A stretch of 22,759 bases of DNA from Baffinella frigidus (Eukaryota > Cryptophyceae > Cryptomonadales > Baffinellaceae). The notes beneath the pieces were generated by a model. It was not told the DNA's origin, ran no database searches, and was given only the letters and a program-made list of their open reading frames with translations. Every line of letters begins with the position of its first letter. Position 1 is the first letter of the stretch. Both the position numbers and the translations under genes were made by a program. Positions 2,845 through 22,645 of the stretch are shown piece after piece. Location of the stretch: contig MU646498.1 in NCBI GenBank assembly GCA_026770585.1, forward strand, positions 20,753 to 43,511, given 5' to 3'.

Positions 2845-5800
2845 CTGCCCGCCGCGGACGCAACCGGGATCAGTCGCGACCCCGATCCAAGCTAAATTCC
2901 AACACCTTCCAGGGCACTATTTGAGCCACTTGGGAGGGCTGGTGGATCTAGGGCGGGCGTCCCAGCACGCGGAACACGCCTTCGCCTCGGACCTGGTTTG
3001 GGGTTTGGGGTTTAGGGCATCTCCCCCCCTAGCTCCATACCGCGGTCGTGTTTGTCGACTTATTAAACCTCGTTCCCCCCCCGTCTGGGGTTCGGCTCGG
3101 ACCTGTCCGCCGCAGACGCAACAGGGATCAGTCGCGTTGGAGTGGGATCCGTCAAACACAACAGGCATCACTTGCGATCAGTCCTAGCAACGACAGGGAG
3201 CAGTCCGTCAGAAGCAACAGGGGTCAGTCGCTTTACACTATCCACTCGGCCTTGGAGGTGGCTCACATAGTGCTCTGGAACATTTTCGATTTACCTTGAC
3301 ATCGGGGTCGGATCCGACCCCGATGCAAGGTAAATTCGAAGACCTTCCAGGGCACTGTTTGAGCCACTTGGGATGGCTGGTGGATCTAGGGCTGGCGTTC
3401 CAGCACGCCTTCGCCTCCCACCTGCTTTGGGGTTTGGGGTTTGGAGTTAAGGGTTTAGGGTTTAGGGTTTAGGGTTTAGGGTTTAGGGTTTAGGGTTTAG
3501 GGTTTAGGGTTTAGGGTTTAGGGTTTAGGGTTTAGGGTTTAGGGTATAGGGTATAGGGTTTAGGGTTTAGGGTGTAGGGTTTACGATTTAGGGTGTAGGT
3601 TGTAGGGTTTACGATTTAGGGTGTAGGGTGTAGGGTTTAAGATTTAGGGTGAAGGGTGTAGGGTATAGGGTGTAGGGTTAAAGATTTAGGGTGTAGGGTG
3701 TGTAGGGTGTAGGTTTTAGGAAGTAGGGTGTAGGGTGTAGGGTGCAGGGTTGAGGGTGTCGGACCGGAGAAGGTCCGCCAGCACTGTCGAGAGGCGATCC
3801 AAGCCAACGTACCTGCCCAGGAGAATGCATGCCACGCTTACTCTCCACACACCGGACTACAAAGCCATTTGAGGCCCAAATCGGGCCACCTGTCCGTTAC
3901 CTTATCCGTAGGATTCCGACCTATGTCCCTACGGGTTGCCTACCGTAGGTTGCGATGGCCGATGCTGTCTAGCGGTAGAGCGTGCGACATACGCCAGGTG
4001 CGACATACGCCAGGTCCACTTTTCAAAAGGTTTGGAGAGTAATAAAGCAGCAGAAGAAGAAGAAGAAGAAGAACCCACTTAGCAGCCAACGGGGGCTTCA
4101 CGGACACAGTCCATCTGAACGATCTGTACTAGAATCTTATCCATTGCGCTGGAACCTAACCGGAATTTCACCTTGCGTTCAAGGTGAAAAGGTCCTCGCC
4201 CGCTGCCAAGTGGCCTGGGGCGGGCTTACCATTGGCCATTCCTTCGGGGGTCATTCAAGCGTCAATTTTCCAGGATTGGATACCTTAAGTTGCACTCGGC
4301 GCGAAAGTGGCGGAGGGCCGCGTGATTCCTGGCAGCCGGTTTCGCCGCCAGGTTGCGCGTCGCCTGCCACGCCAGGTCACAAATGCAAACTTCAATCGCA
4401 ACGTTTCGCGCTAAAAGTGTTTTGTGGCACAAAAAAACGTCGTAGCGGCGACAAAGAGCTCCAATCCCCAAGCTCCCAGGTTTCGTGTCGCCTGCCACGC
4501 CAGGTCATAAATGCGAATTTCACACGCAACGTTTCGCGCCACAAGTGTTTCGTGGTGCAAAAAAACGTTGTAGCGGCGGCATTTAAATTAAAGACTCGGG
4601 ATTTCCCCACATGCACGACAATTACTACACAACGGGACGTACGAGTCGTGTCCAAAAGCGGGGTTGGTAGGGGTCCGATCTTCTGGACCTTCTGGAGACG
4701 AGAGCGGCGCAGACACACGCATACAACGTCCCTTCTGTGTTTTATTGTACAATTCGGGTTGGCTTGGATTCGGGGTCGGGTCGGCAAATTCGAGAAAATG
4801 AAGTTTTATGCTATCTTATGCATGAGATTGATGACAAGATAGCATCTCCCACCCCCAATGTGACACAGAACGGCGCATTTTTGTCAGATTTCCGCCCGAC
4901 CCGACCCTGAAAAAATCCAAGACAACCCGAATTCTACAATAGAATACTCGGGCAGATGGGCCACACGGTGGACTACGACCCTTTCATCAAAAGTCAACTT
5001 GCCTTGATGCAGTTAACTTTAAGGATTTTCTGGTGCAATCTGGTGACGTAACACCCTGAATTCCAGCCCCAACGAAACCTTGGTAGCCCACCGTGTGGTA
5101 GGTCTAGGGTGCAGGGGTTCAGAGTTTAGAGTTTAGGGGTTAGGTCTATGGTTCAAGCGTTTCGGGCGTCGTGTTTCGGGATTAGGTTAAGGGTCCAGGT
5201 CCAGCGTTTGGAGTTGGTTGAGTGTTGGAGTTAGTTGGGTGTTTGGAGTCGGTCCGACCTTCTGGACCTCGGACACGAGAGTGGCGCAGACAAACGCATA
5301 GAACGTCTCGAACGAGTGCCCCGTCCTGCCATCCACGCCAGGTCACATGCGCCATTTTCATACGCACTCGTTCGCAATAGATGGCTTATCCTGGTACAAA
5401 TTATTTTTTAAATCATTATACCGCCCAGCAACACCCGCTAGGGCCATGACAATTCTCTGTTTTAATTGAACAGTCGGAAACGCGTACAACGTCTCGAACG
5501 AGTGCAGCGTCCTGCCATCGCCATCAAATCGTGACACAGACCGCCTCCGAGATCTCGCGCGCTCATCAGCGCTCTGGCGCTGCCGCAGCTGCCGCCGGAT
5601 ATCACCCCGCCAGTTGTTTGAATTCAATGCTCGCGGACTGGACAGGCCACTCGAGGCTAGAAGAGGGAGTATTTCAAATGTGGGGTTGTTAAATTTAGTA
5701 CCAGTCACGGGCAGGCTTGGTCACGTAGCTCAAGGAATTCCTTGAGCTACGTGAACAAACGCCCCCATTTGTGTAAAAAATACTACACACTCCCCCCCCC

Positions 5801-8800
5801 CCTTCACTTGTAAAATAAACCCTGTTTTAAAATAGTCACACTTCTAGCCTCGAGTGGTTGCGGCTAGATTTTATGGAAATTCCAGTATTTTCTTACCAAT
5901 TTCCACAAAAACCTAGCCGCAACGTCCAGTTTTCGAGCATTTGATATAGCTGGCAGGATAAGATTCAGTTCTCATCCTGTGCATGTACCACTCGAGAACG
6001 TAAGAGGGACCCATTTACATCTGGGGTTGTGAACATTTGTACCAGGGTAGGGTGTTCCAACCTCGCGTCTAGGCTAGTTTTTACTAGAATGGCTCCAAAG
6101 GCAATAAAAGTTACTACACACAGGCTACATGCCGGTTTTAAATAGGGCCCTCTAACATTCGTGTGTGGTAGCAGACCACACAGCGGGCTACGAGGGGATG
6201 TTCGGCCCAAATCGGGCCACCTTTCCGTTACCTTATCCGCAGAACCCCCCCTATGCCCCTACGGGTTGCCTACCGTAGGGTCCTAGTTCTTATCGCTTAG
6301 GGGTTATTCAACATCCCTTCGAAGTCCGCTGAGTGGAGCAGGGGAGTGACCGAAATTCGAGGATATCCTGGGCAGTGCACTCGTCCGACGCCAGCTCTGC
6401 GCCGCCGTCTCGCACCACCTTTTGAGGGTTTCGGGTTTCGGGTTTCGGGTTTCGGGTTTCGGGTTTCGGGTTTCGAGTTTCGGGTTTCGGGTTTAGGAAG
6501 GCTCTGATCAAAACGTGAGTCCATTTTACTCAGGCAGAGCTTAACAGCCACCAACCCTCACGGGAGGACCAAATCATCGATTTTCGATCTTTTGTGCAAA
6601 GCACTTTTAAAACTCTAAGAAGTCGGTAGGGTTTAGGGTTTAGAGGTTCGGATCTACCTGGTCACGCTCCTGCGAGAGGAAGAGCTCTTCCTCTCGTGGC
6701 CAGGATGTTGGAGCCATTGATCCAGTGCCATTTCTCGTCCATCTAAACCATTCCTAGTACAAACCCAGACATTTTCAACCCCCTTAAAGTAAAAAATGGC
6801 TCCAACGCCAATCTGAAACAAAAAATGGTCAGGACCGCGAAGACCTGGTCGCGCTCATCGGAGAGGAAGCGCCACGTGGCGAGGATGTTGGCGCCGTTGA
6901 GCCAGTTGTGGTTCACGCTCAGCGCCGCATCCAGGTTCATAACCTGCTCACGTATCCGGCATGTCACGTGACCGTGCTATCCGGCATGTCACGTGACCGT
7001 GCTATCCGGCATGTCCCGTGACCGTGCTCCGCGGTATAAAACTATGTATAGGCTCTGTAAATTGCAATCACGGCGGTATCCCTTAAGTGGCGAGTAGGCG
7101 CACACGCCCTACCGTAGGGCCCTAGGGTCTGCCTAGGACCTCTTGGGGGTCAATTTTGACCCCCTCGCCACTTGAGGGATAACTGTTTGTAGGCTCTTTG
7201 AGTCTCAATCGTCGCATCCAGGTTCCGAGCCTGCTCAAGTATCCGATGTGTCACGTGACCGTGCGGTCAACCCTAACTCCTAACTCCTAACTCCTGACTC
7301 CTCTCCTAACTCCTAAATCCTAACATCTAACATCTAACACCCAACTCCTAGCTCCAAACACCAAACTCCTAACTTCTAACTCCTAACTCCTAACTCCTAA
7401 CATCTAACACCTCTCCTAACTCCTAACTCCTAACTCCTAACTCCTGACACCTCTCCTGATTCCTAACACCTAACACGTAACTCCTAACTCCTAACACCTA
7501 ACTCCCAACTCCCAACTCCCAACTCCCAAGTCCCAACTCCCCAATCGTAACTCGTAACTCGTAACTCGAAACTCGTAACACCTAACACCTGACTCATAAC
7601 ACCTAACTCCTAACTCCTAACTCCTAACTCCTAACTCCTAACACCTAACTGCTAACACCTAACTGCTAACTCCTAACTGCTAACACCTAACTTCTAACTC
7701 TTAACTCCTAACTCCTAACTCCTCACACCTCACACCTCACACCTGACACCTCACACCTCACAGCTAACTGCCAACTGCCAACTGCCAACTGCCAACTGCT
7801 AACTGCTGACTGCTAACTCCTAATTCCTAGTTCCTAGCTCCGTCAACTTCTACGCGCCCGGACGCTCTTGGAGTTGACGGTTTAGACTGGGGCAGAGCTA
7901 GGACCCTACGGTAGGCAACCCGTAGGGGCATAGGGGGGTTCCTACGGACCTGGTGCCACCACCCACTCGGCACGAACATCACCTGCGTAGGAGGTGGAGT
8001 TTGGTTAGGGTTTGGTTAGGGCCCTAATTAACAGTTTGGTTAGGGTCCTAATTAATCTTCGTACTTTGGTTAGGGCCCTAATTAACCTTTGGCTAGGGCT
8101 CTTATTAATTTGGTTAGGGCCCTAATCAACCTTCCTCCGACTCCCATCAAACGGGATTCCAGCGGTAGGAGGTGGAGTTAGAATCCATCCGGAAAATGCT
8201 CGTCTGGAAAATGCTCGGCCGACACGGGGTACAGTGGTGGCACAATGCGTCGAGTATGTGCGGCGCTGACGCTGGTTGTTTGGCAATAAGTTGTCAATCT
8301 CTCTCTCCTGCGTGCCAGGCCGTGTTTCGGACTTAGGGTCCACGGTTTAGGGTATAGGGCTTAGGGTTTAGGGTTTAGGGTTTAGGGTTTAGGGTTTAGG
8401 GTTTAGGGTTTAGGGTTTAGGGTCCAGGGTTCAGGGTTCAGGGTTTAGGGTTCAAGGTTTAGGGTTTAGGGGTCAGGGTTTGGGGCTTAGGGTTTGGGGT
8501 CCAGGGTTTAGGGTTTAGGGTTTAGGGTTAGGGTTCAGGGTTTAGGGTCCAGAGTTTAGGGTTTACATTTAGGGTTTAGGGTTCAGGGATTAGGGTTTAG
8601 GGATTAGGGTTTAGGGTTTAGGGTTTAAGGTTGAGGGTTTAGGGTTTAGGGTTCAGGGTTCAGGGTTTAGGGATTAGAGTCATGCACTCACACACCACAC
8701 AGCGGATTTTCTCTGAACCTCTCTCTCTCTCAACCTCTCTCTTTCTCTCTCTTTCTCTCTTTCTTAACCTCTTTCTCTCTCTCTCAACCTCTCTTTTTCT

Positions 8801-8869
8801 CTCTTCCTCTCTCTCTCTCTCTCAACCTCTCTCTCTCTCGCTCTCGCGCGCGCTCTCTCTCTCTCTCAG

Positions 8870-8922
<53 letters not shown>

Positions 8923-14900: not shown

Positions 14901-17572
14901 TATTCTCAAGTTGGCATCCCGGGTCCGCGGTACAAACCCGTCAACTTTGGAGCGGGAAACAGCCCGGTCTCGCCAAATTCGTGAGACTAAATAGACAGAG
15001 ACAGACCACACAGCGGGCTTCGAAGGAATTTTCGGCCCGAATCGGGCCACCGTTCCGTTACCTTATCCGTAGGAACCCCCCCTATGTCCCTACGGATTGC
15101 CTACCGTAGGGTCGTAGGTCTGATCGCTTAAGGGTTATTCGAAATCCCTTCGAAGTCCGCTGTGTTGGCTAGGTGTCGTCCAGGCTTGCGCGCTTTCAAC
15201 ACAGCGGGTGGTGCTCAGCGTATCCCTCGAGTGGTAAGAGCCTAGTAGGCTCTTGCGCCCTACCGTAGGGCCCCAGGACCGGCCTAGGGCGAGTTAGGGC
15301 GAATATTCGCCCGTCCGCCACTTAAGGGATATGAAAGGTGGGGCGGTGTGGGTTCTCCCACCAACCCTCACGGGAGGACCAAATCAACGATTTTCGACCT
15401 TTTGTGCAAAGCACTTTTAAAACTCCTAAACCCTGTGAGAGAAGCGTCTATTGGGCCATTATAAAATCAGAGGGGTCGATTCGACCCCTCTGCAAGGGGA
15501 AAATGGCTCCAAGAAATCGTTGATTTGGTCTCACCGTGAGGGTTGGTGGTCAGGGGCGTACCCACTCCCGCGAGATCCGCCACGCGTCCGTGAGACCCGA
15601 CACCAGCACCTGGGGCGCAGCGCAGGTCAGCCACTTAGCAGCCATCGGGGTTTTCACGGATGCAGTCCATTTAAACGGTTTGAACTGGAATCTTATCCAT
15701 TGCTATATATTCCAACCGGAATTTCCCCCGAGAATCCGGGGGAAAATATCTTCGGTCGCTGCTAAGTGGTCAGGCAAAGAGTCACGCTCGGGCGTGACTC
15801 TCCTAAACCCCACGCCCCAAACCCCAAACCCGAACGCGAATTTCGCAACCTCGAACGCCAACAAGACCAGACGTCCGTGACCAGATGTCTGTGAGACCCG
15901 ACACGAGCACCTGGGGGGTAGAGCAGTGTTCATGAAAAGAATGGAACAACGCCAACCCGCTGGCCTGAGAGTAATGAAGCCAAGCAATACGGAGGGCTTC
16001 GCAGATGGGCCTGTGTATTTTCGTGGCACTCATTCAGAATTGCTCGGTACAAAGACATGCTATTTCCCGACATTTCGACCAGGTTTCTGGTCGAAATTTC
16101 CTGCGAACTGCGTGGGAGAAGATGAACGGTGATCAGATCGGAGGTTCGAACGCTGCCGTTTCCGTCGTGACGCGCATCGTCGTTTCGACCACTCATCTCC
16201 AGGCTTGAGAGAAATAAAGAGGATGGAGTTTTTAACAGCATGCCGCTCAATTGAAAGCGTGCCGAAAAGGGGAGTAGGGGATGCGGACCTAGCTCTTTCG
16301 TTTTGGGCTCACGACTGAGTCGTCGTGGCCACTTAGCAGCGACCGAAGATACCCCCCCCCGGATTCTCGGGGGAAATTCCGGTTGGAATCCATAGCAATG
16401 GACACGATTCTAGTACAAATAGTTTAGATGGACTGCATCCGCGAAGACCTCGGTGGCTGTTTGCTAAGTGGCAGGATCGCTGCTAAGTGGATCACCACTT
16501 CGGCGAGACCGGGTCTCAGTCCACCCTACACTTGATTGATTCGTTCTGCAAACCCAGAGTGACAACCTTTAATCGCCATGGAAGTATCAATCATTTGCTT
16601 TTGGGCAACGAAAATAACTACACGATTTGCTCATAAAAGTAATAAAGCATTTGTGTAGAAAATTTCGTTGCGCCAAAAGCAATTGATTAATACTTTTGTG
16701 GAGATGAACTTGCGAATCGTCCGTGAACGCGAGTGGGGCAGAGCGAAGATGAAGACCTCTAGGGTTCAGGGTTTGGGGTTTAGCGTTTAGCGTTTAGGGT
16801 TCAGGGTTTTTGAGGGAAAGGGTTTCGGGTTTCGGGTTTCGGGTTTCGGGTTTAGGGTTTGGGGTTCAGGGTTTAGGGTTTAGGGTTTAGGTTTTAGGGT
16901 TTAGGGTTCAGGTTTTAGGGTTTAGGGTTTAGGGTTCAAGGTTTAGTGTTTAGGGTTTACCACGCCAGAGTGGAGGAGGGGGTAGGCTTTTAAAGGGCTA
17001 TAATCCCCCCCTTGATTTTGTACCAGGACGTGACGCCCGTGAAGTCAGTTATGAGTTTTAAAAAAGAATCGTGATTGGTTCCAGGACTCATCACGTCCTT
17101 TAGAAGGACTCATCACGTCCTTTTGCGACCCTTTCTCGTCAAATCTTCTGCACGTCCTTCCTGGACACGTTACTGACAGACATTTCGGGATCTAGACCCT
17201 TCGATTCAGAAAAATATTGTGGACGTGACAGCTTCCTCAACACCCAGGGGCGCCACCTCGGCCACTTTTGGCGAAAGTTCAACCCGCCCAAACGGGCGGG
17301 TTAAAATATTTTTCCTCCTCCTCCACTCTGGCGTGGTAGGTTTAGGGTTTAGGGTTTATTGGGAGAATGGTTTAGGGTTTGGAACCGGCGTGTTGGCGAG
17401 CATGAACTCCTCCCAGAAGCGCTCCAACGGGAGGTCCTCCGCCGCCACGCGCGCGATCCCCTCTGAGAGAGTTGATTGGTTACACGACCAGCATGCCCAC
17501 ATATGAAGACCCCCAGCGGAGGTTTTGGACCCTCTGCGGTTCCAACCCTAGCTCTGTGACGCGCGTCCCCAT
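2752..17572 (-). CDS. JMJD4: JMJD4-like JmjC 2-oxoglutarate/Fe(II) oxygenase, about 15 exons
   Basis: Spliced model on the minus strand, upstream to downstream: 17531-17572 (tentative start), 17386-17460, 15562-15609, 14528-14614, 13524-13562, 13159-13195, 12182 into the gap, 11691-11751, 10696-10818, 9778-9818, 9301-9361, 7950-7982, 6845-6943, 6351-6418, 5259-5325, then a last exon at 3386-3421 or 2752-2844. Acceptors are AG and donors GT, except one GC (exon 14528-14614). Every checkable junction keeps one frame. Diagnostic stretches are LYLKDWNFEKEF, DHRFVYLGAK, TPLHKDTLNSFSWS, GRKRWW, FVPSGWWHQ and NHNWLNGANILATWRFL, all typical of the JMJD4 branch of JmjC proteins. The iron ligands HxD (HKD) and the distal His (WWH) are present. 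Known animal JMJD4 hydroxylates a lysine of release factor eRF1 and acts in translation termination; that role here is inferred. The summed exons give roughly 325 residues plus the gap. Introns carry TTTAGGG arrays and MITEs, and many exons have partial duplicates nearby. Confidence 0.85.
2880..2945. mobile_element. Family F, right half
   Basis: CCCCGATCCAAGCTAAATTC through TTGAGCCACTTGGGAGGGCT to GGTGG matches the right half of the 1538-1695 element. Confidence 0.65.
3120..3235 (+). repeat. Diverged short repeats around AACAGGGATCAGTCGC
   Basis: AACAGGGATCAGTCGC (3120), AACAGGCATCACTTGC, GACAGGGAGCAGTCCG and AACAGGGGTCAGTCGC follow one another. A related AACCGGGATCAGTCGC lies at 2862. This looks like local duplication of a short segment. 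Confidence 0.55.
3250..3383. mobile_element. MITE-like element, family F copy 2
   Basis: Central palindrome GGGGTCGGATCCGACCCC, arms TTCGATTTACCTTG/CAAGGTAAATTCGAA, and right end CCACTTGGGATGGCTGGTGG. The left end is degenerate (GGAGGTGGCTCAC). Confidence 0.75.
3386..3421 (-). CDS. Alternative last exon VGGEGVLERQP
   Basis: 36 nt after AAAGCAG|, which closes the 3425-3770 telomere-like array. It ends at TAG in phase with the upstream exon. A family F element (right end 3383) directly abuts the stop. Confidence 0.4.
   Translation of the reverse strand: MGGEGVLERQP
3425..3770 (-). repeat. TTTAGGG interstitial telomere-like array
   Basis: Near-perfect TTTAGGG units at about 3447-3545, decaying into TGTAGGG variants. 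It lies in the last intron of the minus-strand gene and ends at a CAG acceptor (minus strand). Confidence 0.95.
3845..3950. mobile_element. Family B element, truncated
   Basis: CCACACACCGGACTAC end, GGCCCAAATCGGGCC inner hairpin, and the conserved CCGTTACCTTATCCGTAGGA and TTGCCTACCGTAGG blocks. The right end is missing. Confidence 0.65.
3982..4013 (+). repeat. Two perfect 16-bp tandem units
   Basis: GTGCGACATACGCCAG occurs twice in a row. Confidence 0.9.
4075..4213. mobile_element. MITE-like element, family A copy 1
   Basis: Ends CCACTTAGCAGCC and GCTGCCAAGTGG. Inner CAGTCCATCTGAACGATCTG and TACTAGAATCTTATCCATTG are shared with copies at 15631-15769 and 16329-16471 and half-copies near 12960-13022 and 14633-14700. 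An AGA trinucleotide run (about 4050-4073) precedes it. Confidence 0.75.
4351..4580 (+). repeat. 128-bp direct tandem duplication (family E unit)
   Basis: GTCGCCTGCCACGCCAGGTC, then AACGTTTCGCGC and CAAAAAAACGT(C/T)GTAGCGGCG, occur at 4351-4478 and again from 4479. A related end lies at 5328-5350. Confidence 0.8.
4689..4730 (-). pseudogene. Partial duplicate of exon 5259-5325
   Basis: Minus strand reads TLYACVCAALVS, then a decayed boundary (AGAAGGTCCAGAAG). It corresponds to TFYAFVCATLVSEVQK of the real exon. No acceptor precedes it; an element (4743-4941) starts next to it. Confidence 0.65.
4743..4941. mobile_element. MITE-like element, family Q, long inverted repeats
   Basis: Left end TATTGTACAATTCGGGTTGG with TTCGGGGTCGGGTCGG; right end carries CCCGACCCGACCCTG and CAACCCGAATTCTACAATA. 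Arms are about 45 bp. Confidence 0.8.
4961..5098. mobile_element. MITE-like element, family R
   Basis: Ends CCACACGGTGG and CCACCGTGTGG, perfect 11-bp inverted repeats, 138 bp apart end to end. Confidence 0.6.
5259..5325 (-). CDS. JMJD4: JMJD4-like exon TGHSFETFYAFVCATLVSEV
   Basis: 67 nt from GGCAG| to |GTCGGA. The SFETFYAF motif resembles the C-terminal '(N/S)FEEFYHFL' helix of JMJD4. Partial copies sit at 5482-5511 and 4689-4730. Confidence 0.7.
5482..5511 (-). pseudogene. Partial duplicate of exon 5259-5325
   Basis: After GGCAG| the minus strand reads (G)RTLHSFETLYA, matching RTGHSFETFYA, then runs into GTTTCC. It keeps acceptor and reading frame but loses the second half. Confidence 0.65.
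5647..5857. mobile_element. MITE-like element, family M copy 1, with a central palindrome
   Basis: Perfect 17-bp ends CCACTCGAGGCTAGAAG and CTTCTAGCCTCGAGTGG. The middle (5721-5754) is a perfect 34-bp palindrome centred on GGAATTCC. Related copies are at 5988-6168 and 10039-10212. Confidence 0.85.
5857..5923. mobile_element. Short hairpin element abutting family M
   Basis: GTTGCGGCTAGATTTTATGG pairs with the complementary right arm ending CTAGCCGCAAC. 67 bp in total, beginning at the last base of the neighbouring element. Confidence 0.7.
5988..6168. mobile_element. MITE-like element, family M copy 2
   Basis: Left end CCACTCGAGAACGTAAGAGG, inner TGGGGTTGTGAACATTTGTA and GGTGTTCCAACCTCGCG, right end CCCTCTAACATTCGTGTGTGG. 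Confidence 0.7.
6177..6336. mobile_element. MITE-like element, family B copy 1
   Basis: Ends CCACACAGCGGGCTACGAGG and CCTTCGAAGTCCGCTGAGTG, inner GGCCCAAATCGGGCC, CCTTATCCG, and GGGTTGCCTACCGTAGGGTC. It lies just downstream of exon 6351-6418. Confidence 0.8.
6351..6418 (-). CDS. JMJD4: JMJD4-like exon VVRDGGAELASDECTAQDIL
   Basis: 68 nt from AAAAG| to |GTCACT, ending two bases into a codon. The next exon (5259-5325) begins with one base, giving Arg, so the phases match. Conservation is low here, so the model rests on phase and boundaries. Confidence 0.6.
6424..6495 (-). repeat. TTTCGGG heptamer array
   Basis: About nine units of TTTCGGG, a homogenised variant of the telomere-like heptamer, in the intron just upstream of exon 6351-6418 (minus strand). 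Confidence 0.9.
6658..6728 (-). pseudogene. Partial duplicate of exon 6845-6943 with a palindromic scar
   Basis: The minus strand reads HWINGSNILAT, then a palindrome (6673-6696, 24 bp, centred on GAGCTC), then CAGGAGCGTGACCAG| before GTAGAT. It matches NHNWLNGANILATW...ERDQ. The palindrome replaces the WRF part and breaks the frame. Confidence 0.75.
6845..6943 (-). CDS. JMJD4: JMJD4-like exon VMNLDAALSVNHNWLNGANI...
   Basis: 99 nt, 33 codons, GAGCAG acceptor and GTCTTC donor. It reads through NHNWLNGANILATWRFL to SDERDQ. This is the best conserved post-catalytic block of the subfamily. Two partial duplicates flank it (7210-7266 and 6658-6728). Confidence 0.92.
6956..7029 (+). repeat. 25-bp tandem repeat, three units
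   Basis: CCGGCATGTCACGTGACCGT plus GCTAT occurs three times (third unit with one change). It contains a CACGTG palindrome and sits at the acceptor side of exon 6845-6943. Confidence 0.9.
7077..7181. mobile_element. MITE-like element, family D copy 2
   Basis: Ends TATCCCTTAAGTGGCGAG and CGCCACTTGAGGGATA, with CGCCCTACCGTAGGGCCCTA and CCTAGGACC inside. It separates exon 6845-6943 from the relic at 7210-7266. Confidence 0.85.
7210..7266 (-). pseudogene. Duplicate of the acceptor side of exon 6845-6943
   Basis: The segment matches 6923-6980: exon start (AACCTGGATGCGACG), the AGCAG acceptor and the upstream CACGTGACCGTG. It spans the intron/exon boundary, so genomic DNA, not mRNA, was duplicated. 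Confidence 0.75.
7264..7830 (+). repeat. CTCCTAA heptamer array, opposite polarity to the rest of the gene
   Basis: Degenerate CTCCTAA/CACCTAA units over more than 550 bp, with local variants (CTCCCAA, CTCGTAA, CTGCCAA). The C-rich strand is +, although the host gene is on the minus strand. Confidence 0.85.
7841..7881. repeat. CCGTCAACTT ... GAGTTGACGG inverted repeat
   Basis: A 41-bp interrupted palindrome related to the GTTGACGG/CCGTCAAC blocks at 11261, 14891, 20866 and 22433. Confidence 0.6.
7901..7949. mobile_element. Family B core fragment abutting an exon
   Basis: ACCCTACGGTAGGCAACCCG then TAGGGGCATAGGGGGGTTCC and TACGGAC, without ends. It forms the first 49 bp of the intron after exon 7950-7982. 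Confidence 0.7.
7950..7982 (-). CDS. JMJD4: JMJD4-like 33-nt microexon VMFVPSGWWHQ with distal iron His
   Basis: 11 codons, phase 0, ACGCAG acceptor and GTCCGT donor. The His of WWH is the third iron ligand. The donor GT lies at the edge of a truncated family B element (7901-7949), so the element supplies the start of the intron. Confidence 0.9.
8003..8130 (+). repeat. Five copies of TTTGGTTAGGGCCCTAATTA
   Basis: Tandem, slightly diverged units of about 25-30 bp containing the palindrome TTAGGGCCCTAA. The same palindrome recurs inside the family I elements. Confidence 0.8.
8156..8302. repeat. Dispersed repeat T, copy 1 (inverted copy at 20942-21083)
   Basis: GCGGCGCTGACGCTG, CCGACACGGGGTACAGT and GGATTC/CATCCGGAAAAT blocks match the reverse complement of 20942-21083 across about 145 bp. 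No ends or ORF recognised. Confidence 0.7.
8340..8680 (-). repeat. TTTAGGG interstitial telomere-like array
   Basis: Runs of perfect TTTAGGG (about 8363-8423) and variants TTCAGGG, TTTGGGG. Intron of the minus-strand gene. Confidence 0.95.
8708..8940 (+). repeat. (CT)n pyrimidine microsatellite
   Basis: CTCTCT with interspersed CAACCTCT and CTTTCT. It lies between a stray CCACACAGCGG end (8695) and the family B copy at 8945. Any open frame here is low complexity. Confidence 0.95.
8945..9106. mobile_element. MITE-like element, family B copy 2
   Basis: Ends CCACACAGCGGACCTCAAAG and CCTCGTAGCACGCTGTGTGG. Inner AACCCTTAAGCGATAAGACC, CCCTACGGTAGCCAATCCGT and CCTACGGATAAGGTAACGGA. Confidence 0.85.
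9301..9361 (-). CDS. JMJD4: JMJD4-like exon FPGASKALEKLILVDQRPGE
   Basis: 61 nt between TGCGCAG-type acceptor CGCAG| and |GTCCGA. The first base completes Arg, and the exon ends with QRPGE in phase 0, directly before VMFVPSGW. The sense 'Q..GE.(V/M)FVPSGW' is strongly conserved in the family. Confidence 0.85.
9778..9818 (-). CDS. JMJD4: JMJD4-like exon GTQLFDIRDVDHA
   Basis: 41 nt between ACGCAG| and |GTCCCC, ending two bases into Arg, which the next exon completes. It fits the 'G.LPYDV' segment after the LRD motif. Confidence 0.8.
10039..10212. mobile_element. Family M, copy 3 (right end lost)
   Basis: CCACTCGAGAATGCTGGAGG, TATATGTGGGGTTGTAAATA and GGTGTTCCAACCTCGCG match copy 2. Its right part ends at TTTTAAATAGGCCCTCTCTC, then exon-derived repeats begin. 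A half-copy in inverted order occupies about 10356-10496. Confidence 0.65.
10213..10665 (-). pseudogene. Cluster of duplicated fragments of the catalytic exon
   Basis: Minus-strand fragments at 10506-10573 (SIAGRKRWWMLPPEAGPSLR, donor kept) and 10301-10353 (RWWMLPPEAGPSLR, donor kept) repeat exon 10696-10763. The block GGGCCCGCCTCGG (coding PEAGP) alone recurs about eight times between 10251 and 10730. Two perfect 28-bp tandem units lie at 10593-10648. Confidence 0.8.
10696..10818 (-). CDS. JMJD4: JMJD4-like catalytic exon with Fe(II) HxD motif
   Basis: 123 nt, 41 codons, phase 0, GACAG acceptor and GTGAAG donor. It begins GTFTPLHKDTLNSFSWSAS and continues GRKRWWMLPPE to LRDKK. H and D of HKD (codons 7 and 9) are the first two iron ligands. 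The K/R-W pair after 'G-K' is typical of the 2-oxoglutarate-binding strand. Parts of this exon are repeated at 11098-11153, 10506-10573 and 10301-10353. Confidence 0.92.
10838..11034. mobile_element. MITE-like element, family O
   Basis: Ends TAGAGCGGTTTT and AAAACCGCTCTA, with further complementary arms (CATCTGTCGGCCAC, GGGCTCCAATTCCGGC). Length 197 bp. It separates the catalytic exon from its duplicate at 11098-11153. Confidence 0.85.
11098..11153 (-). pseudogene. Duplicate of the 5' half of the catalytic exon
   Basis: After CCCCAG| the minus strand reads STFTPQHKDTLDAFSWSAI, then diverges. Compare GTFTPLHKDTLNSFSWSAS. It keeps HKD. As an alternative cassette it would give an out-of-context tail, so it is probably a relic. 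Confidence 0.75.
11261..11340. repeat. Dispersed block S copy 1 (GTTGACGGACTATT ... CCGTCAACTT)
   Basis: GGTTGACGGACTATT, CACAAGTTGACGG, GCGGGCGCGCGGTACA and CCGTCAACTT in this order. It recurs at 14891-14948, 20866-20941 and 22433-22490. Confidence 0.75.
11380..11480. mobile_element. Inverted-repeat element related to family P
   Basis: CAAATCGTCGATTTTCGATT at left and AAAATGGCTCCAAAAAATCG then ATGGTTTG at right form inverted arms. The same pieces occur at 6580-6605 and in the full element at 15358-15549. Confidence 0.6.
11589..11620 (-). pseudogene. Duplicate of the 3' end of exon 11691-11751
   Basis: GACCACCGCTTCGTGTACCT then CGGCGCTAAG|GTTGCG equals the exon's DHRFVYLGAK plus donor. The stretch between the copies includes a CTCTGGCGTGG element end (11677-11687). 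Confidence 0.8.
11691..11751 (-). CDS. JMJD4: JMJD4-like exon LNDYERDSASDHRFVYLGAK
   Basis: 61 nt from CGCAG| to |GTTCCA. The first base completes Trp from the previous exon, then 20 codons follow. DHRFVYLGAKG leads directly into the catalytic exon. A partial copy (11589-11620) lies 100 bp away. Confidence 0.85.
11897..12170 (-). repeat. TTTAGGG-like degenerate array
   Basis: GGGTTTAGGG, TGTAGGG, TTTCGGG and TTTTGGG units in the intron between exons 12182 and 11751. Confidence 0.9.
12182..12277 (-). CDS. JMJD4: JMJD4-like exon LYLKDWNFEKEFPEYKLYEW (5' end in gap)
   Basis: The visible part reads EGELLYLKDWNFEKEF and continues to WPALFREDW, ending two bases into a codon at |GTATACC. The next exon supplies the final G of Trp. 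LYLKDW is a hallmark of this subfamily. The acceptor lies in the N run. Confidence 0.85.
12278..12542. other. Assembly gap (265 N)
   Basis: A run of N inside the minus-strand gene. It hides the 5' part of exon 12182-12277 and possibly one further small exon. Confidence 1.
12563..12705. mobile_element. MITE-like element, family I copy 1
   Basis: ATCCGGGGACATGTTTAATT at left, complementary AAATTGAACATGTTCCCGGA at right, and GATTAATTAGGGCCCTAAGT inside. An inverted copy lies at 19972-20116. Confidence 0.8.
12730..12890. mobile_element. MITE-like element, family K, about 50-bp inverted repeats
   Basis: CTTATCTCACACAAAGTATT and AATTGGTTTTAGAAAGTCAA at left, complementary arms at right ending TGTGTGAGATAAG. 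Flanked by GT on both sides. Confidence 0.85.
13086..13114. repeat. Hairpin GGGTGGTAAAT/ATTTACCACCC
   Basis: Perfect 11-bp stem, 7-base loop, centre of a longer imperfect palindrome (about 13026-13152) whose ends resemble family F (CCACCAGCCCTCA). Confidence 0.7.
13159..13195 (-). CDS. JMJD4: JMJD4-like exon VKEYLAWWSSRQ
   Basis: 37 nt between AACCAG| and |GTCTAC, leaving one base for the next exon, which should begin in the assembly gap. The KEYLAWW motif fits the helix just before the 'LYLKDW' strand. Confidence 0.75.
13222..13510. repeat. Telomere-like array with an internal polarity switch
   Basis: TTTAGGG/TTTGGGG units from 13222 to about 13455, then an abrupt change to CCCTAAA-type units (CTCTAAACCCGGAACCCTGA) up to 13510. 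The junction is head-to-head. Confidence 0.85.
13524..13562 (-). CDS. JMJD4: JMJD4-like exon VAGMSQLRTREMT
   Basis: 39 nt, phase 0, flanked by AACAG| and |GTAACC. The REMT end joins VKEYLAWW in the next exon, matching the family's 'MTLRDY..YW' helix. Confidence 0.75.
13563..13775 (-). repeat. TTTAGGG/TGTAGGG array
   Basis: Alternating TTTAGGG, TTTGGGG and TGTAGGG units, beginning one codon away from the acceptor of exon 13524-13562. Confidence 0.95.
13971..14000 (+). repeat. CTCTAGCGTGG tandem units
   Basis: Three CTCTAGCGTGG units here, two at about 14499-14520, and single CTAGCGCGGCTG copies on each side of the family B element (14161 and 14340). These may be remnants of another inverted-repeat end. 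Confidence 0.7.
14008..14430 (-). pseudogene. Two relic copies of the RVTVHDCASQ exon end
   Basis: 14008-14035 (VTVHECASQ) and 14389-14425 (ARVTVHESASQ), each followed on the minus strand by CAG|GC. They match the 3' end of exon 14528-14614 and lie on the two sides of the element at 14180-14338. Confidence 0.8.
14180..14338. mobile_element. MITE-like element, family B copy 3
   Basis: CACAGCGGACTTCAAAGGAA at left, GCCCGCTGTGTG at right, inner CCCTACGGTAGGCAATCCGT and CCTACGGATAAGGTAACGGA. Confidence 0.85.
14528..14614 (-). CDS. JMJD4: JMJD4-like exon VGRDGRVRPEGIEAL... with GC donor
   Basis: 87 nt, 29 codons, GATCAG acceptor. It reads through RVTVHDCASQ and stops at CAG|GCACCG. Only a GC donor keeps the join to VAGMSQLRTREMT in frame, and two neighbouring relic copies carry GC at the same place. 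Non-canonical GC donors are common in some protists. The segment aligns by position with the 'GD..VPVANC' strand of JMJD4. Confidence 0.7.
14703..14794 (-). pseudogene. Three tandem fragments of exon 14528-14614
   Basis: Minus strand: GPEGIED, GRVRPEGIEALF and AEGIEALF in the same open frame, matching VRPEGIEAL of the exon. This is a local tandem amplification of a 20-40 bp exon segment. Confidence 0.8.
15006..15167. mobile_element. MITE-like element, family B copy 4
   Basis: CCACACAGCGGGCTTCGAAG and CTTCGAAGTCCGCTGTGTTG ends; inner GGCCCGAATCGGGCC, TTGCCTACCGTAGGGTCG. Confidence 0.85.
15221..15331. mobile_element. MITE-like element, family D copy 3
   Basis: TATCCCTCGAGTGG and CCACTTAAGGGATA ends; CGCCCTACCGTAGGGCCCC inside and a GGGCGAATATTCGCCC palindrome. 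Confidence 0.8.
15358..15549. mobile_element. MITE-like element, family P, full copy
   Basis: CCACCAACCCTCACGG at left and CCGTGAGGGTTGGTGG at right, then GACCAAATCAACGATTTT arms and a central GAGGGGTCGATTCGACCCCT palindrome. A 2-bp TC flanks both sides. Confidence 0.85.
15562..15609 (-). CDS. JMJD4: JMJD4-like exon VLVSGLTDAWRISREW
   Basis: 48 nt, phase 0 at both ends, CCCCAG acceptor and GTACGC donor. The reading resembles the 'PCVF...F..GW..R..W' segment of the family. A diverged partial copy lies at 15879-15910, with a family A element (15631-15769) between them. Confidence 0.8.
15631..15769. mobile_element. MITE-like element, family A copy 2
   Basis: CCACTTAGCAGCC and GCTGCTAAGTGG ends, GGAATTTCCCCCGAGAATCC hairpin inside. 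TCAG is found on both sides (4 bp). Inserted between exon 15562-15609 and its relic. Confidence 0.85.
15879..15910 (-). pseudogene. Relic copy of exon 15562-15609
   Basis: After CCCCAG| the minus strand reads VLVSGLTDIW, then diverges. Compare VLVSGLTDAW. Confidence 0.8.
15911..16328. other. Intron interior without recognised features
   Basis: Short open frames exist on both strands but none shows family resemblance or splice context. A TTTCGACCAGG...CTGGTCGAAA inverted repeat at about 16075-16098 is the only structure I see. Confidence 0.6.
16329..16471. mobile_element. MITE-like element, family A copy 3 (opposite orientation)
   Basis: CCACTTAGCAGCGACCGAAG with GGATTCTCGGGGGAAATTCC and GTTTAGATGGACTGCATCC, ending TTTGCTAAGTGG. 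A second GCTGCTAAGTGG end follows at 16479-16490. Confidence 0.8.
16535..16730. mobile_element. MITE-like element, family L
   Basis: GAAGTATCAATCATTTGCTT, GGGCAACGAAAATAACTACA at left and complementary arms GTGTAGAAAATTTCGTTGCG and AGCAATTGATTAATACTTTT at right. Confidence 0.75.
16765..16958 (-). repeat. TTTAGGG/TTTCGGG array
   Basis: TTTAGGG-like units with a TTTCGGG block at about 16822-16852. The array stops exactly at the TA flanking the next element and resumes after it (17338-17365). Confidence 0.9.
16960..17336. mobile_element. Long (377 bp) member of family G inserted in a telomere-like array
   Basis: CCACGCCAGAGTGGAGGAGG and CCTCCTCCACTCTGGCGTGG ends, TA on both sides. Inside are two copies of GGACTCATCACGTCCTTT and a perfect AACCCGCCC/GGGCGGGTT hairpin (17281-17302). 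No ORF of note. Confidence 0.85.
17386..17460 (-). CDS. JMJD4: JMJD4-like exon, N-terminal (GIARVAAEDLPLERFWEEF)
   Basis: The 75-nt exon between CTCTCAGAG| and |GTTCC encodes 25 codons including LPLERFWEEFMLANTP. This matches the 'F..F....PVL' entry region that precedes the JmjC fold in JMJD4 proteins. The next exon begins VLVSGLTDAW, continuing the conserved 'PVLVSG' join. The acceptor could instead be two bases upstream (17462), but the phase favours 17460. Confidence 0.7.
17531..17572 (-). CDS. JMJD4: Tentative first exon of the JMJD4-like gene
   Basis: ATG at 17572 on the minus strand opens MGTRVTELGLEPQR and stops at a GTCCAA donor in phase 0, which fits the phase-0 acceptor at 17461. 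There is no further support; a longer first exon or another start is possible. Confidence 0.35.
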
Positions 17573-18692: not shown

Positions 18693-20573
18693 ATGCCTCC
18701 CACCAACGACTACTTTGACGTGCGTTCTGACCGGGTGGGGGTTCCGAGAGACCCGGCGCAGCCCGGAGAGGTCCGCTTCCCCTCTTGGGATAATGTGACA
18801 GCATCGCTGAATGCCTTCGTTCCTGGCGTCAAGAAGAGCCGCCCGGAGCTCTTCGCGGTACCTGCCCGGCCCCAGTTCACCGACTTCCCCTCCCGAACAT
18901 GTAGTGGGCCGCTTTGCTTGTGATGGCTGTGTGGTTCGTTTGGCGGGGGGGGCAGTGGGAGGGCGTTCGGAGGCGCCTGCTTCCACTCATCGGACTGGCT
19001 GTGTGGTCTGACCAAGAGCCGCGCTGCGGTTGCGTGCTGCCGCTGTGTATGGGCTTGGAGTTCTGTGCTGTTGCAGGTACAAAGAAGGGCGGTGTTGTGA
19101 CACGGGGTGCTTGTGTTCGCCGCTCACCTAAACCCTGAACCCTAAACCCCAAACCCCAAACCCTCAACCCCCAACCAGGCAAGCAAAGCAGGGGGTGGCA
19201 TGCCGATGCAGGAGCACGGGCGCAAGAGCGTGGCCATGATCACTAAGACCCAGTTCCCTGAAGACCCTTCGCGCGACCTGTCGGTCAACCAGCTGGTAAC
19301 CCCTAAACCCCTAAACCCTCGACCCTCAACCCTCAACCCTCAGCCCTCAACCCTCAACCCCCAACCCTAAACCCTAAACCCTAAACCCTAAACCCTAAAC
19401 CCTAAACCCTAAGCCCTCAACCCTTAACCCTAAACCCTAAACCCTAAACCCTCAACTCTACACCCTAAATCAGGCTAAGGAGCTGATGTCGATCCGCATC
19501 GACCCCACGGGGGACGCGCGCGCGGTACACCCTACACCCTACACCCTAGACCCTAGACCCTAAACCCTAAACCCTACACCCTACACCCTGAACCCTAAAC
19601 CCTAAACCCTAAACCCTACACCCTACACCCCAAACCCTAAACCATGAACTCTAAACCCTCAACACTAATCACTACACCCTACACCCTAAACTCTCAACCC
19701 TAAACACCAAACCCTAAACCCTTAACCCTAAAAACTACACACTAAACCGTAAACCCGAAACCCTGAACTAGGTGATGAACATCATCGTCGACCCGAAAAG
19801 CCCCAGGACCACGCCAGATTGCAGGAGGGGGTTGAATTTTTTAGAACGTATCTGGATACGTTCGTTGACTTTTGAAAACCACTGCCTTCAAGAGGAATCG
19901 ACTTTTGGCGAACCCTTCCAAGACTCTGGCGTGGGAGGCGCCCACCTTGGAGCAGACCCGAAACTCATCCGGGAACACGTTTGATTCAAAAGAAAATGGC
20001 CTATCAAACCGGATTCTGGTCCTAATTAAATTTACTTAGAGCCCTAATTAACCTTCGTCCAACTCCTATGAACAAATAGGGGTCCGTTTTCTTGTAAACC
20101 AAACATTTCCCCGGATTGAAGCCGCTGGAGGCGCCCACCTTGGAGCAAACTTATCTCGGAAAAGCCTTTTTAGAAGTCGTTTTCTTAAGTCAACCCCCCC
20201 ACAAATATGTCAACTTATGCGTAGAGAAAAGAATAAGTTGACGAATTTTAGGGGAATTGACTTAAGAAACGACTTTTAGAAAGGCTTTTTTGAGATTAAA
20301 CCCCTAAAACCTCAACCCCTACAGGTGATGAACCTCATCATCGACCCGAAAAGCCCCAGGAGGCGCCCGCCTTGGAGCAAACACTAAACCCTCAACCCTA
20401 AAACAGGTTATGAACTTCGTCATCGATCCGAAGCCCCAAGAGGCGCCCACCTTGGAGCAGCTCGCCGCGCGCGAGGCCGCCACTAAGTACTTGATCTGCC
20501 CCAGTCGGGTTGACTCATCGTTTCCCTTCACCCAGCCTCTCTCTCTGTCTCTATGTCTGTCTCTCTCTGTCTC

Positions 20574-20638
<65 letters not shown>

Positions 20639-22645
20639 TGCGCGCGACGCCGCGGCCAAGTACTAGCTCTGCCCCAGTTGGGTCGACTGATCGTTTCCAC
20701 CCCCAAAATTGGCGGATGCGTACCACAAAACAGGGGAATCAACTTCCGGTCTCGTAATTGACGAGACGAGATTAACAGAGGCAGCGCTAGAAGTACACCC
20801 TAACCCCTGGACCTTGACCCCTACGGCTTGAGCCCTGGCTCCGTTGCCTAGCTCCGCCTCAGTCGGGTTCACGGACTATCCACAAGTTGACGAGGACTAT
20901 CCAAAAACTCACTTTCCGGGCGCGCGGTACAACCGCGTCAGAGATTGGCAATTGATTGCCAAAAAAACAGCGTCAGCGCCGCACATGCCTTACGCATTGC
21001 GCTACATACTGTACCCCGTGTCGGCCGCTCTTACGAGATTTTCCCGGATGGATGCTGTCTCCACCTCCTACAACAACCGCGTCAACTCTGGCGGTGGGCA
21101 GCCAGAGCCCTCTGGCCTCATCCCACCTCTCCCCCTGGCTCCACGCCGCGTTCGTGTATGTCAACTTTGGGGGTGGGCGTCAACTTTCGCCCTGGGTGCA
21201 GGCACGACCGCATCGGGCAGATCATCGGGAATGGCTCCAACGAACCGTGGTTCCCCAACGTGGACGCTATGGTGCGTTGCCCACCTCTGAATCCTACCAC
21301 CAGCAACCCGAAGTGAGCCAGATCCGGGCAGTGAGCGTTTTTGACCCTACGGTAGCAAACCCCTAGGGACCTATTGATTTCCTACGGGGGCGAATAGATG
21401 GCTGGATTTGTTTTTGGAGAAAATTACCGCAGGGGGTCGCCCTGATCTGGTTCACTTGGAGGTTACAACCGGCTCCAACGAGCCGTGGTTCCCCAACATG
21501 GACGCTATGGTGCGTTGCGCGCCCACCTCTCCACGCCAGATTCTTGGAAGGGGTTGCCAAAAGTCAATTTCCCCTGAAGGCAGTGGTTTTCAAAAGTCAA
21601 AAGTCCTATCCTGTAAGGTTCTAAAAAAATCAACCCCCTCCTGGGCTCTGGCGTGGCTGGATCCTACCACCAGCAACCCGAAGTGAACCAGATCCGGGTA
21701 GTGAGCGTTTCTTTCGGTCACAAGGACCCTACGGTAGCAAACCCCTAGGGCCCTATTGATTTCCTACGGGGGCGAATAGATGGCTGGTACACTCATTTTT
21801 GAAAAAAACTTTGGAGAAAATTACCGCAGGGTGTCGCCCTGATCTAGTTCACTTAGAGGTGACAGCCGGCTCCAACGAAGCGTGGTTCCCCAACATGGAC
21901 GCTACGGTGCGTTGCACGCCCACCTCTCGATCCTACCACGCCAGAGTCTTCGAAGGGGTCGCCAAAAGTCAATTCCCGTTCAAAGCAGTGGTTTTCAAAA
22001 GTCAACACCTGTGTCCTGACACGGTTTTTTGAAAATAGCCCCCTCCAAGACTCTGGCGTGGTATCTCTGTCTCTCTACGCGTTCTCACACCCTTGCAGAG
22101 GCTTTCTATTTTTCAAGCTACAACTCGGCCACTTTTGGAGTGTTTTTCCAGGTAAAAGACACCCAACCCAACTCTACTGCAAGCCATAACATTTCACCAC
22201 TCCCGGCAACTCACTGCCGATGATCAGCTAGGTCGACTTACGGCGAAATATTCTGGATGGCAGTTGGCAGTGAACTCTGAATCCTAGCCCTGTCTCTGTC
22301 CATTTGTCCTCACCAATTTGTTGAGCGCGGGCTCTTTCCCGACCCAAATTTGACGGGTGTGTACCGCACACCCAGCATGTCACCCTTAGAATGGTCGGTT
22401 AACCCGAGTGAGGCAGCGCTAGGAATCGGCCGGGTTGACGGACTATTCACAAGTTGACGTTGCGGGCGCGTGGTACAACGTCGTCAACTTCGGGGGTGGG
22501 CGTCATCTTTGGGGCTGGGTGTCAACTCCGGGGTGGGTGTCAACTTTGGGGCTGGGTGTCAACTTCGCGCTGGGTGTCAACTTTGGGGGTGGGTGCAGGT
22601 GCGCGGAAGCGTGGCCAACGTCGAAGCCCAGGGCCTCAAGCGCCG
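18693..22645 (+). CDS. 5' part of an unrecognised multi-exon gene (continues off the window)
   Basis: Supported exons: 18693-18857 (ATG start, 55 codons, MPPTNDYFDVRSDRVGVPRD...), 19179-19295 (ASKAGGGMPMQEHGRKSVAM...), 19474-19524 (AKELMSIRIDPTGDARA), 20407-20486 (VMNFVIDPKPQEAPTLEQLA...), 21202-21271 (HDRIGQIIGNGSNEPWFPNV...), 22599-22645 (VRGSVANVEAQGLKR). A mini-exon 19077-19091 is possible. Acceptors are CAG and donors GT. Phases fit: exon 20407-20486 leaves AA and the next supplies G (Lys), the others join in phase 0. I do not recognise the protein. It is not a JmjC protein and shows no obvious membrane segment. The introns contain CCCTAAA arrays, MITEs and several relic copies of exons. 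It is transcribed away from the JMJD4-like gene. Confidence 0.75.
19131..19770 (+). repeat. CCCTAAA arrays in introns of the right gene
   Basis: Blocks 19131-19172, 19298-19470 and 19525-19768 separate exons 19179-19295, 19474-19524 and the copy at 19772. Variants are CCCTCAA, CCCTACA and CCCTAGA. The C-rich strand is the sense strand. Confidence 0.95.
19809..19934. mobile_element. 126-bp family G element inside an exon copy
   Basis: CCACGCCAGA and TCTGGCGTGG ends, GA duplicated on both sides. The uninterrupted copy at 20345-20362 (CCCCAGGAGGCGCCC) shows the empty site. Confidence 0.9.
19972..20116. mobile_element. MITE-like element, family I copy 2
   Basis: ATCCGGGAACACGTTTGATT and AAACCAAACATTTCCCCGGA ends, AAAGAAAATGGCCTATCAAA and TTACTTAGAGCCCTAATTAA inside. 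Inverted relative to 12563-12705. Confidence 0.8.
20152..20296. mobile_element. MITE-like element, family J
   Basis: ATCTCGGAAAAGCCTTTTTA with GTCGTTTTCTTAAGTCAA at left, complementary GACTTAAGAAACGACTTTTA and AAAGGCTTTTTTGAGAT at right. It begins right after an exon fragment and ends at a CCCTAAA stretch. Confidence 0.8.
20537..20646 (+). repeat. (CT)n/(CTGT)n microsatellite running into (CG)n
   Basis: CTCTCTGTCTCTCTGTCTGT, then (CT)n to about 20624 and CGCGCGCGCG to about 20646, in the intron after exon 20407-20486. The polypyrimidine strand is the sense strand. Confidence 0.95.
20640..20692 (+). pseudogene. Duplicate of the exon end and intron start at 20474-20520
   Basis: GCGCGACGCCGCGGCCAA|GTACTAGCTCTGCCCCAGT with GGTCGACTGATCGTTTCC repeats GCGAGGCCGCCACTAA|GTAC and the first 35 bp of the intron. 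It includes the splice donor. Confidence 0.8.
20942..21083. repeat. Dispersed repeat T, copy 2
   Basis: ATTGCCAAAAAAACAGCGTC, GCGCCGCACAT and TACTGTACCCCGTGTCGGCC match the reverse complement of 8156-8302. It starts right after dispersed block S copy 3. Confidence 0.7.
21233..21935 (+). repeat. Threefold repeat of an exon end plus intron (about 240-270 bp unit)
   Basis: Units begin at 21233, 21471 and 21868 with GGCTCCAACGA, include CGTGGTTCCCCAACRTGGAC and the donor |GTGCGTTGC, and continue with CCTACCACCAGCAACCCGAA, CCCTACGGTAGCAAACCCCT and AAATTACCGCAGGG. Unit 2 contains a family G insertion that unit 1 lacks. Only the first exon copy has the CAG acceptor (21199-21201). Confidence 0.85.
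21531..21656. mobile_element. 126-bp family G element with empty-site allele in a neighbouring repeat unit
   Basis: CCACGCCAGATTCTTGGAAG and CTCTGGCGTGG ends, CT on both sides. Unit 1 of the tandem repeat (CACCTCTGAATCC at 21281) is the unoccupied site. Confidence 0.92.
21936..22061. mobile_element. 126-bp family G element
   Basis: CCACGCCAGAGTCTTCGAAG and CAAGACTCTGGCGTGG ends, TA on both sides, same length and interior (CCAAAAGTCAATT, GTGGTTTTCAAAAGTCAA) as 21531-21656. Confidence 0.92.
22062..22432. other. Intron interior, little recognised
   Basis: A CTCGGCCACTTTTGGAGTGT stretch is similar to parts of other elements, and GACGGGTGTGTACCGCACAC is near-palindromic. I see no exon. Confidence 0.6.
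22433..22490. repeat. Dispersed block S copy 4
   Basis: GTTGACGGACTATTCACAAG, TTGACGTTGCGGGCGCG and GGTACAACGTCGTCAACTT. Confidence 0.8.
22482..22597 (+). repeat. About 20-bp tandem repeat (GTCAACTTTGGGGNTGGGT) before an acceptor
   Basis: About six units of GTCAACTTTGGGG-TGGGT run into GTGCAG| of exon 22599-22645. Two similar units precede GTGCAG| of exon 21202-21271, so both intron 3' ends share an origin. Confidence 0.85.

Follow-up and report, generated by a model that had tools for sequence, protein, structure and literature searches.

Why should the introns of a gene hold decayed pieces of the exons that border them? The question is raised by a 22,759-nucleotide stretch of the Baffinella frigidus genome (the window; coordinates below are counted from its first base), in which partial copies of exon ends lie in the introns of two genes. 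One, on the minus strand, we take to be JMJD4-like, and the other lies to its right on the plus strand; 20 exons, all predicted, were modelled in the two, and the scope of the analysis is this one window. The birth and growth of introns is an old open question for which few recent cases have been caught in the act, and the locus offers main copies that are still 76–95% alike, many introns that are absent from the open reading frame of a metagenome relative, and one step (at the donor of exon R4) whose order can be read. If the pattern proved general in the genome, many genes could serve to measure what kind of lesion, transposon or repair pathway makes introns longer, and whether splice borders serve as targets.

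Exon models and the copies of exon ends

The Pfam domains listed for relatives of the JMJD4-like gene are PF13621 and PF02373. In a reading-frame check seven of its exons join in one open frame, with GT after each and AG before all six that have a known upstream intron; six of the seven end in AG, and all six that follow an intron start with G. The remaining exons of this gene were read by eye and partly matched to relatives, with several exon ends placed by hand; E12 and E13 are provisional, and the E2 model needs a GC donor. The spliced model of the right-hand gene is 97% identical, over the whole query, to P0015 (T484DRAFT_1797350, from the cryptophyte Baffinella frigidus), the deposited protein of the same genome. 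A Pfam scan of long read-through frames, made on the plus strand only (three frames per half) and so lying outside the minus-strand JMJD4-like gene, gave just two weak matches, neither of which reached the curated cut-off, and Rfam gave no match at gathering scores.

Copies were detected by self-BLAST at E ≤ 1e-3 with tandem repeats masked, and were called local when direct and separated by a gap of less than 800 bp. Over the two gene regions this masked self-comparison yields 30 pairs that are local and direct, and these fall into 12 families. Partial copies in an adjacent intron were found for E1, E2, E6, E7, E11 and E13 of the JMJD4-like gene and for R4 and R5 of the right-hand gene, at 13 splice junctions where 17 pairs were examined. 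The earlier note had counted at least seven such exons in the JMJD4-like gene, one more than this threshold returns (a seventh, near 7950–7982, is suggestive by eye), and two or more in the right-hand gene, which agrees with R4 and R5; the three copies that it named (7210–7266, 11589–11620 and 20640–20692) are all recovered as self-BLAST pairs, at 85%, 92% and 85%. The other 12 of the 20 modelled exons have no copy at E ≤ 1e-3, and several of these adjoin introns made mostly of TTTAGGG-type repeats, which were masked in the search. Copies on the donor side reproduce the 3′ end of the exon and those on the acceptor side its 5′ end, and most of them include the splice site; the E2 acceptor alignment and one of the E2 donor alignments (E2don-a) end a few bases before it.

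In the JMJD4-like gene (all exons on the minus strand), the acceptor-side segment 15586–15625 of predicted exon E1 (15559–15614) recurs at 15887–15926 (88%), with a terminal inverted repeat (TIR) element at 15630–15772 in the gap. Predicted exon E2 (14522–14612) has a copy set spanning 14002–14768: donor-side copies at 14387–14430 and 14002–14034, together with related intron segments (14006–14075 and 14387–14456), and acceptor-side copies at 14732–14768 and 14700–14725, with TIR elements at 14180–14338 and 14639–14699 in the gaps. The frame-checked exon E6 (11691–11751; LNDYERDSASDHRFVYLGAK) has a 39-bp donor-side segment (11688–11726) copied at 11585–11623 (92%), and the 64-bp insert there terminates in GCTCTGGCGTGG, which resembles the terminus of the MITE-A family. 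Exon E7 (10696–10818; GTFTPLHKDTLNSFSWSASISGRKRWWMLPPEAGPALRDKK; frame-checked) is copied from both ends, the acceptor side 10764–10821 at 11099–11156 and the donor side 10688–10765 at 10498–10575 (90% each), with further partial donor-side copies at 10296–10351 and 10224–10265 and TIR elements at 10838–11034 and 10356–10431 in the gaps. For the frame-checked exon E11 (6845–6943; VMNLDAALSVNHNWLNGANILATWRFLSDERDQ), the acceptor side 6923–6977 is copied at 7210–7264 (85%; E = 0.036 masked and 2e-11 unmasked), with a MITE at 7077–7181 between, and the donor side 6843–6906 at 6656–6726 (76%). The provisional exon E13 (5265–5325; C-terminal ...HSFETFYAFVCATLVSEVQK) has its acceptor side 5292–5333 copied at 5478–5519 (90%) and its donor side 5251–5307 at 4672–4730 (86%), the latter gap containing a TIR element at 4737–4947.

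In the right-hand gene (plus strand), the copy set of exon R4 (20407–20490; VMNFVIDPKPQEAPTLEQLAAREAATK) spans 19770–20459. Its acceptor-side copies lie near 19770–19964, 20118–20150 and 20304–20379, the last being a near-pure 80-bp tandem repeat, and its donor side 20467–20525 is copied at 20640–20698 (85%) with (CT)n between. The residues VMNII of the deposited P0015 match the first of the R4 exon copies (19772–19786), which points either to a genuine micro-exon or to a mistaken annotation. The set of exon R5 (21200–21277; HDRIGQIIGNGSNEPWFPNVDAMVR) spans 21233–22061; its 3′ end and donor are repeated at 21471–21530 and 21868–21939 in a tandem array that is 81% alike over 406 positions, which suggests a drift of about 0.10.

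Could such copies be an artefact of assembly, or haplotypes left unresolved? The window contains an N gap (12278–12542) and the assembly is therefore scaffolded. However, the main copy pairs are 5–24% diverged, which argues against an assembly effect, and the gaps between them contain different DNA; the full-length match to P0015 points the same way, but that protein was deposited from this very genome and so offers no independent test. An artefact is thus very improbable.

Intervening DNA and the order of insertion and duplication

A complete TIR element lies in nine of the 18 gaps between copies, against 1.8 under random placement (0 of 5000 placements reach nine). The count used a hand-made list of 23 elements and excludes a tenth gap element, which starts five bases early; moreover, a gap exists only where an insertion occurred, so the figure shows that MITEs are common inserts, which is not to say that they cause the copies. 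The earlier statement that copies usually bracket a MITE-like element therefore holds for half of the gaps; in the others the DNA is (CT)n, tandem repeats of 18 or 28 bp, or unclassified. Among neighbouring pairs, 11 of 16 have largely unrelated DNA between direct repeats of 37–78 bp, although two of these gaps are not wholly foreign (the E2 acceptor gap holds the exon piece 14700–14725, and that of E7don-a consists mainly of a 28-bp tandem repeat) and three show stray 14–15 nt matches to the outer flanks. The other pairs are plain tandem repeats (the R4 acceptor, with 80-bp spacing and a 4-bp gap, R5don-a and R5don-b) or complex (E2don-b and the E7 acceptor).

Related TIR elements recur in several introns. 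MITE-A is present at 19808–19938, where it interrupts an R4 copy, and at 21526–21656 and 21932–22062, and a second family (CCACACAGCGG) occurs at 6172, 8945, 14180 and 15002. Several elements lie with an end 0–8 bp from a copy (20153, 19967–20116, 21526, 10356, 14699, 15630 and 4737). Target duplications legible by eye are short, 2–6 bp (the R4 donor element has AAGTAC and MITE-A two bases), and no intron was noticed to consist of one element end to end. The first intron of the JMJD4-like gene also holds an insert of about 380 bp (16958–17338) with 25-bp inverted ends, which carries CCACGCCAGA/TCTGGCGTGG, as does MITE-A.

At one junction insertion and duplication can be placed in order. An imperfect TIR element (20664–20790, plus strand) with AAGTAC on both sides (20658–20663 and 20791–20796) sits at the R4 donor, and the relative P0016 passes from the exon straight into sequence like that at window position 20791, from which the exon is here separated by the element. 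A 59-bp segment comprising the R4 exon end and the end of the element is duplicated around (CT)n. So the element came first here and the duplication second.

We infer, in a judgement evenly poised between right and wrong, that the exon ends in the introns were left behind when DNA breaks at exon-intron borders were repaired time and again. Such a break would have staggered ends, as after two nicks on opposite strands some tens of bases apart, possibly initiated by transposon activity, and filling in and rejoining would duplicate the 37–78 bp between the nicks; alternatively, a larger unit may have been tandemly repeated (80 bp at R4, 238 bp at R5). The other DNA present between the copies of most pairs (MITE, (CT)n or unclassified) would lie there as if captured. 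An extra copy would be tolerated only on the intron side, where splicing removes it, and further rounds with later MITE insertions would give longer introns in which decaying exon ends are buried. Break and fill-in would be the cause, with MITEs as trigger or filler and selection acting through splicing. Such repair fits the exclusively direct orientation of the copies, their variable length (below about 100 bp) and the unrelated DNA in 11 of 16 pairs; small tandem duplications are described as arising at nick-induced breaks with single-strand overhangs in the accessible part of PMC8355091. Two readings had been offered earlier, intron gain by tandem duplication of AG|GT-containing segments and break repair that copies flanking DNA, and it is the second that fits these observations better.

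The elements themselves might instead have driven the process: a MITE or introner inserting at splice-site motifs, with a long or imprecise target duplication or by one-ended insertion, would create insert and exon copy together, and repeated targeting of the border would lengthen the intron. The frequency of TIR elements in the gaps, the closeness of several element ends to a copy and the two MITE-A elements whose insertion points within the repeated R5 unit differ slightly all favour this explanation, which would also account for the bias toward exon borders. However, the legible target duplications fall far short of 37–78 bp, the length of the repeats varies, gaps contain different element families or none, and the R4 acceptor and R5 donor arrays are tandem duplications. 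It is therefore possible but doubtful. Three further candidates were dropped on inspection: alternative exons (the copies carry one exon end only), a retroposon making long target duplications (the gaps show no insert in common) and capture of exons by MITEs (the copies are local).

Intron age and the copies as proposed scars of intron birth

The metagenome relative P0001 (67% identity, 72% query coverage) is a single ORF of 239 residues. The window introns from E3|E4 to E10|E11 fall inside this uninterrupted frame, so many of them look young. Past the end of E11 the window reads on into VF, as does P0001, and the E11|E12 intron thus looks shared; the start of P0001 similarly points to an E2|E3 intron that looks shared. 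P0001 residues 33–55 find no match in the window, and the N gap lies there. Viral contigs scanned with P0001 and with the MITE pattern gave no relatives. P0016 is continuous across R2|R3 and R3|R4, both of which contain telomere-like repeats here, and then runs into sequence of the R4|R5 intron (window 20791–20868; 73%, E = 9e-9). The absence of introns from P0001 and P0016 is read from uninterrupted frames and intron-like tails. Telomere-like repeats of the TTTAGGG type dominate introns at 19297–19473, 19526–19773, 13224–13453, 13565–13769, 9457–10001 and 8333–8677.

If introns here were born by tandem duplication of exon segments containing AG|GT (the Rogers/Hellsten model), the copies would be scars of that birth. 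The many young-looking introns inside the P0001 frame are in keeping with this, as are the AG ends and initial G of the frame-checked exons. However, the model expects the start of the next exon at the 5′ end of the intron and the end of the previous exon at its 3′ end, an order found at none of the 13 junctions; at all 13 the copy instead repeats the end of the exon that it adjoins, on that same side, and intron gain of this kind, which the earlier note had raised, finds no support as a general explanation. Nor do the copies follow intron age. That note expected duplicates to flank lineage-specific introns, yet they are present in all three introns that relatives seem to share (E2|E3 and E11|E12 by comparison with P0001, R4|R5 with P0016) and in only four of the ten that lie inside the relatives' reading frames (E6|E7, E7|E8, E10|E11 and R3|R4), so the copies do not mark new introns. 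In addition, P0001 has EDAAGTK at the place where a donor-side copy of E7 reproduces a stretch of intron (GTGAAGCC/GTCAAGCC), and that intron is thus probably older than the duplication. Birth by AG|GT duplication is accordingly quite improbable as the source of the copies.

Concentration of the copies at exon borders

Eleven of the 12 repeat families touch an exon. Random placement of the exons gives 5.0 ± 1.6 such families (0 of 2000 placements reach 11), and circular shifts give a mean of 5.6, with 11 reached in 0.5% of 1837 shifts, the unshifted state included. Of masked rows sharing at least 12 bases with an exon there are 19, every one direct and within 800 bp, and no inverted or distant masked row of the window self-comparison overlaps an exon; the far or inverted rows listed without masking (for far direct rows, 12 of 21) overlap E3, E8, E9 and R3, exons with telomere-like repeats as flanks. 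Decay of both arms makes intron-only duplications harder to see: when both arms drifted by 0.11, 134 of 200 simulated ones were detected, compared with 192 of 200 when a single arm was left to drift, and at 0.15 per arm 43 of 200. With 1551 possible start positions that touch an exon and 9829 others, uniform events should nevertheless have left about 49 intron-only families (about 16 with the stronger drift), and one is seen. Lower detectability does not explain this scarcity; within this window the surplus at exon borders is genuine, and it is the most puzzling of the findings.

These numbers bear on a more ordinary account, in which replication slippage or unequal exchange made local tandem duplications and MITEs inserted at random afterwards, the clustering at exons merely reflecting better recognisability there. 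The R4 acceptor and R5 donor sets are indeed plain tandem repeats into which MITEs were inserted. On the other hand, the loss of detection is too small for the exon excess, other DNA lies exactly at the joint in 11 of 16 pairs, and random insertions should often split copies, which is seen only in the R4 copy 19770–19964 and the R5 units. We consider this account improbable.

The shortfall of intron-only families argues that something directs the events to exon borders, and break repair by itself offers nothing of the kind. A transposase that prefers splice-like sites may do so, or lesions linked to splicing; alternatively, the gene may until recently have had few introns and consisted mostly of exon, which agrees with P0001 though not with copies lying in introns that are shared. 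A broader reading, speculative and rather unlikely, is that in this cryptophyte these borders are a genome-wide hot spot at which a transposase, or a lesion coupled to splicing, time and again duplicates the border and takes up filler; introns would then grow outward by serial duplication of their own splice sites, in a ratchet separate from intron gain. The copies also tend to end at the splice site, with a mean intron share of 0.21 at the 13 junctions. Under neutral drift this has P = 0.0005, 0.0095 and 0.43 at 0.11, 0.15 and 0.22 per arm, respectively, in a simulation that used lengths of 45–100 bp, above those observed, and the result is not relied on.

A 2014 study by Vaughn and Bennetzen reportedly links, in its title, natural rice insertions to tandem duplications. 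Among known systems, the small tandem duplications at breaks are similar in being direct and mostly shorter than 100 bp, as far as the accessible text describes them (PMC8355091), but here they are concentrated and recurrent at exon-intron borders and often flank MITE-bearing DNA. Introners resemble the present elements as MITE-like TIR elements in protist introns, many apparently lineage-specific (PMC9860276; PMC7789003, both in the portions consulted). Their insertion-site repeats are given there as 3–9 bp (PMC9860276) and the direct repeats over the exon/intron boundary as 3–5 nt (PMC7789003), unlike the exon-end copies of 37–78 bp that lie here at a distance around mixed inserts. Intron gain by tandem duplication, in the available parts of the potato RdRp report (PMC4974935) and a review (PMC3443670), shares local duplication that includes splice signals; the duplications here differ in being own-end and non-reciprocal and in occurring in shared as well as new introns. 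Direct repeats near intron borders have been ascribed to insertion and break repair in the accessible sections of PMC11782384, but those are 4–30 bp long (mean 11.4), whereas these measure 37–78 bp and number up to four copies. Among the matches listed, subscription papers and supplements aside, no paper deals with copies of exon ends in the nuclear introns of Baffinella or of cryptophytes, none concerns Baffinella introns by title and abstract, and the main text of the introner survey does not name Baffinella.

Four related palindromic elements lie clustered to the left of the JMJD4-like gene (1391–1515, 1976–2097, 2313–2415 and 2453–2575), and local copies at 2803–2878, 2951–2995, 3091–3136 and 3404–3425 encode QHAEHAFASDLPAADATGIS-like pieces, which are perhaps exon copies of another gene.
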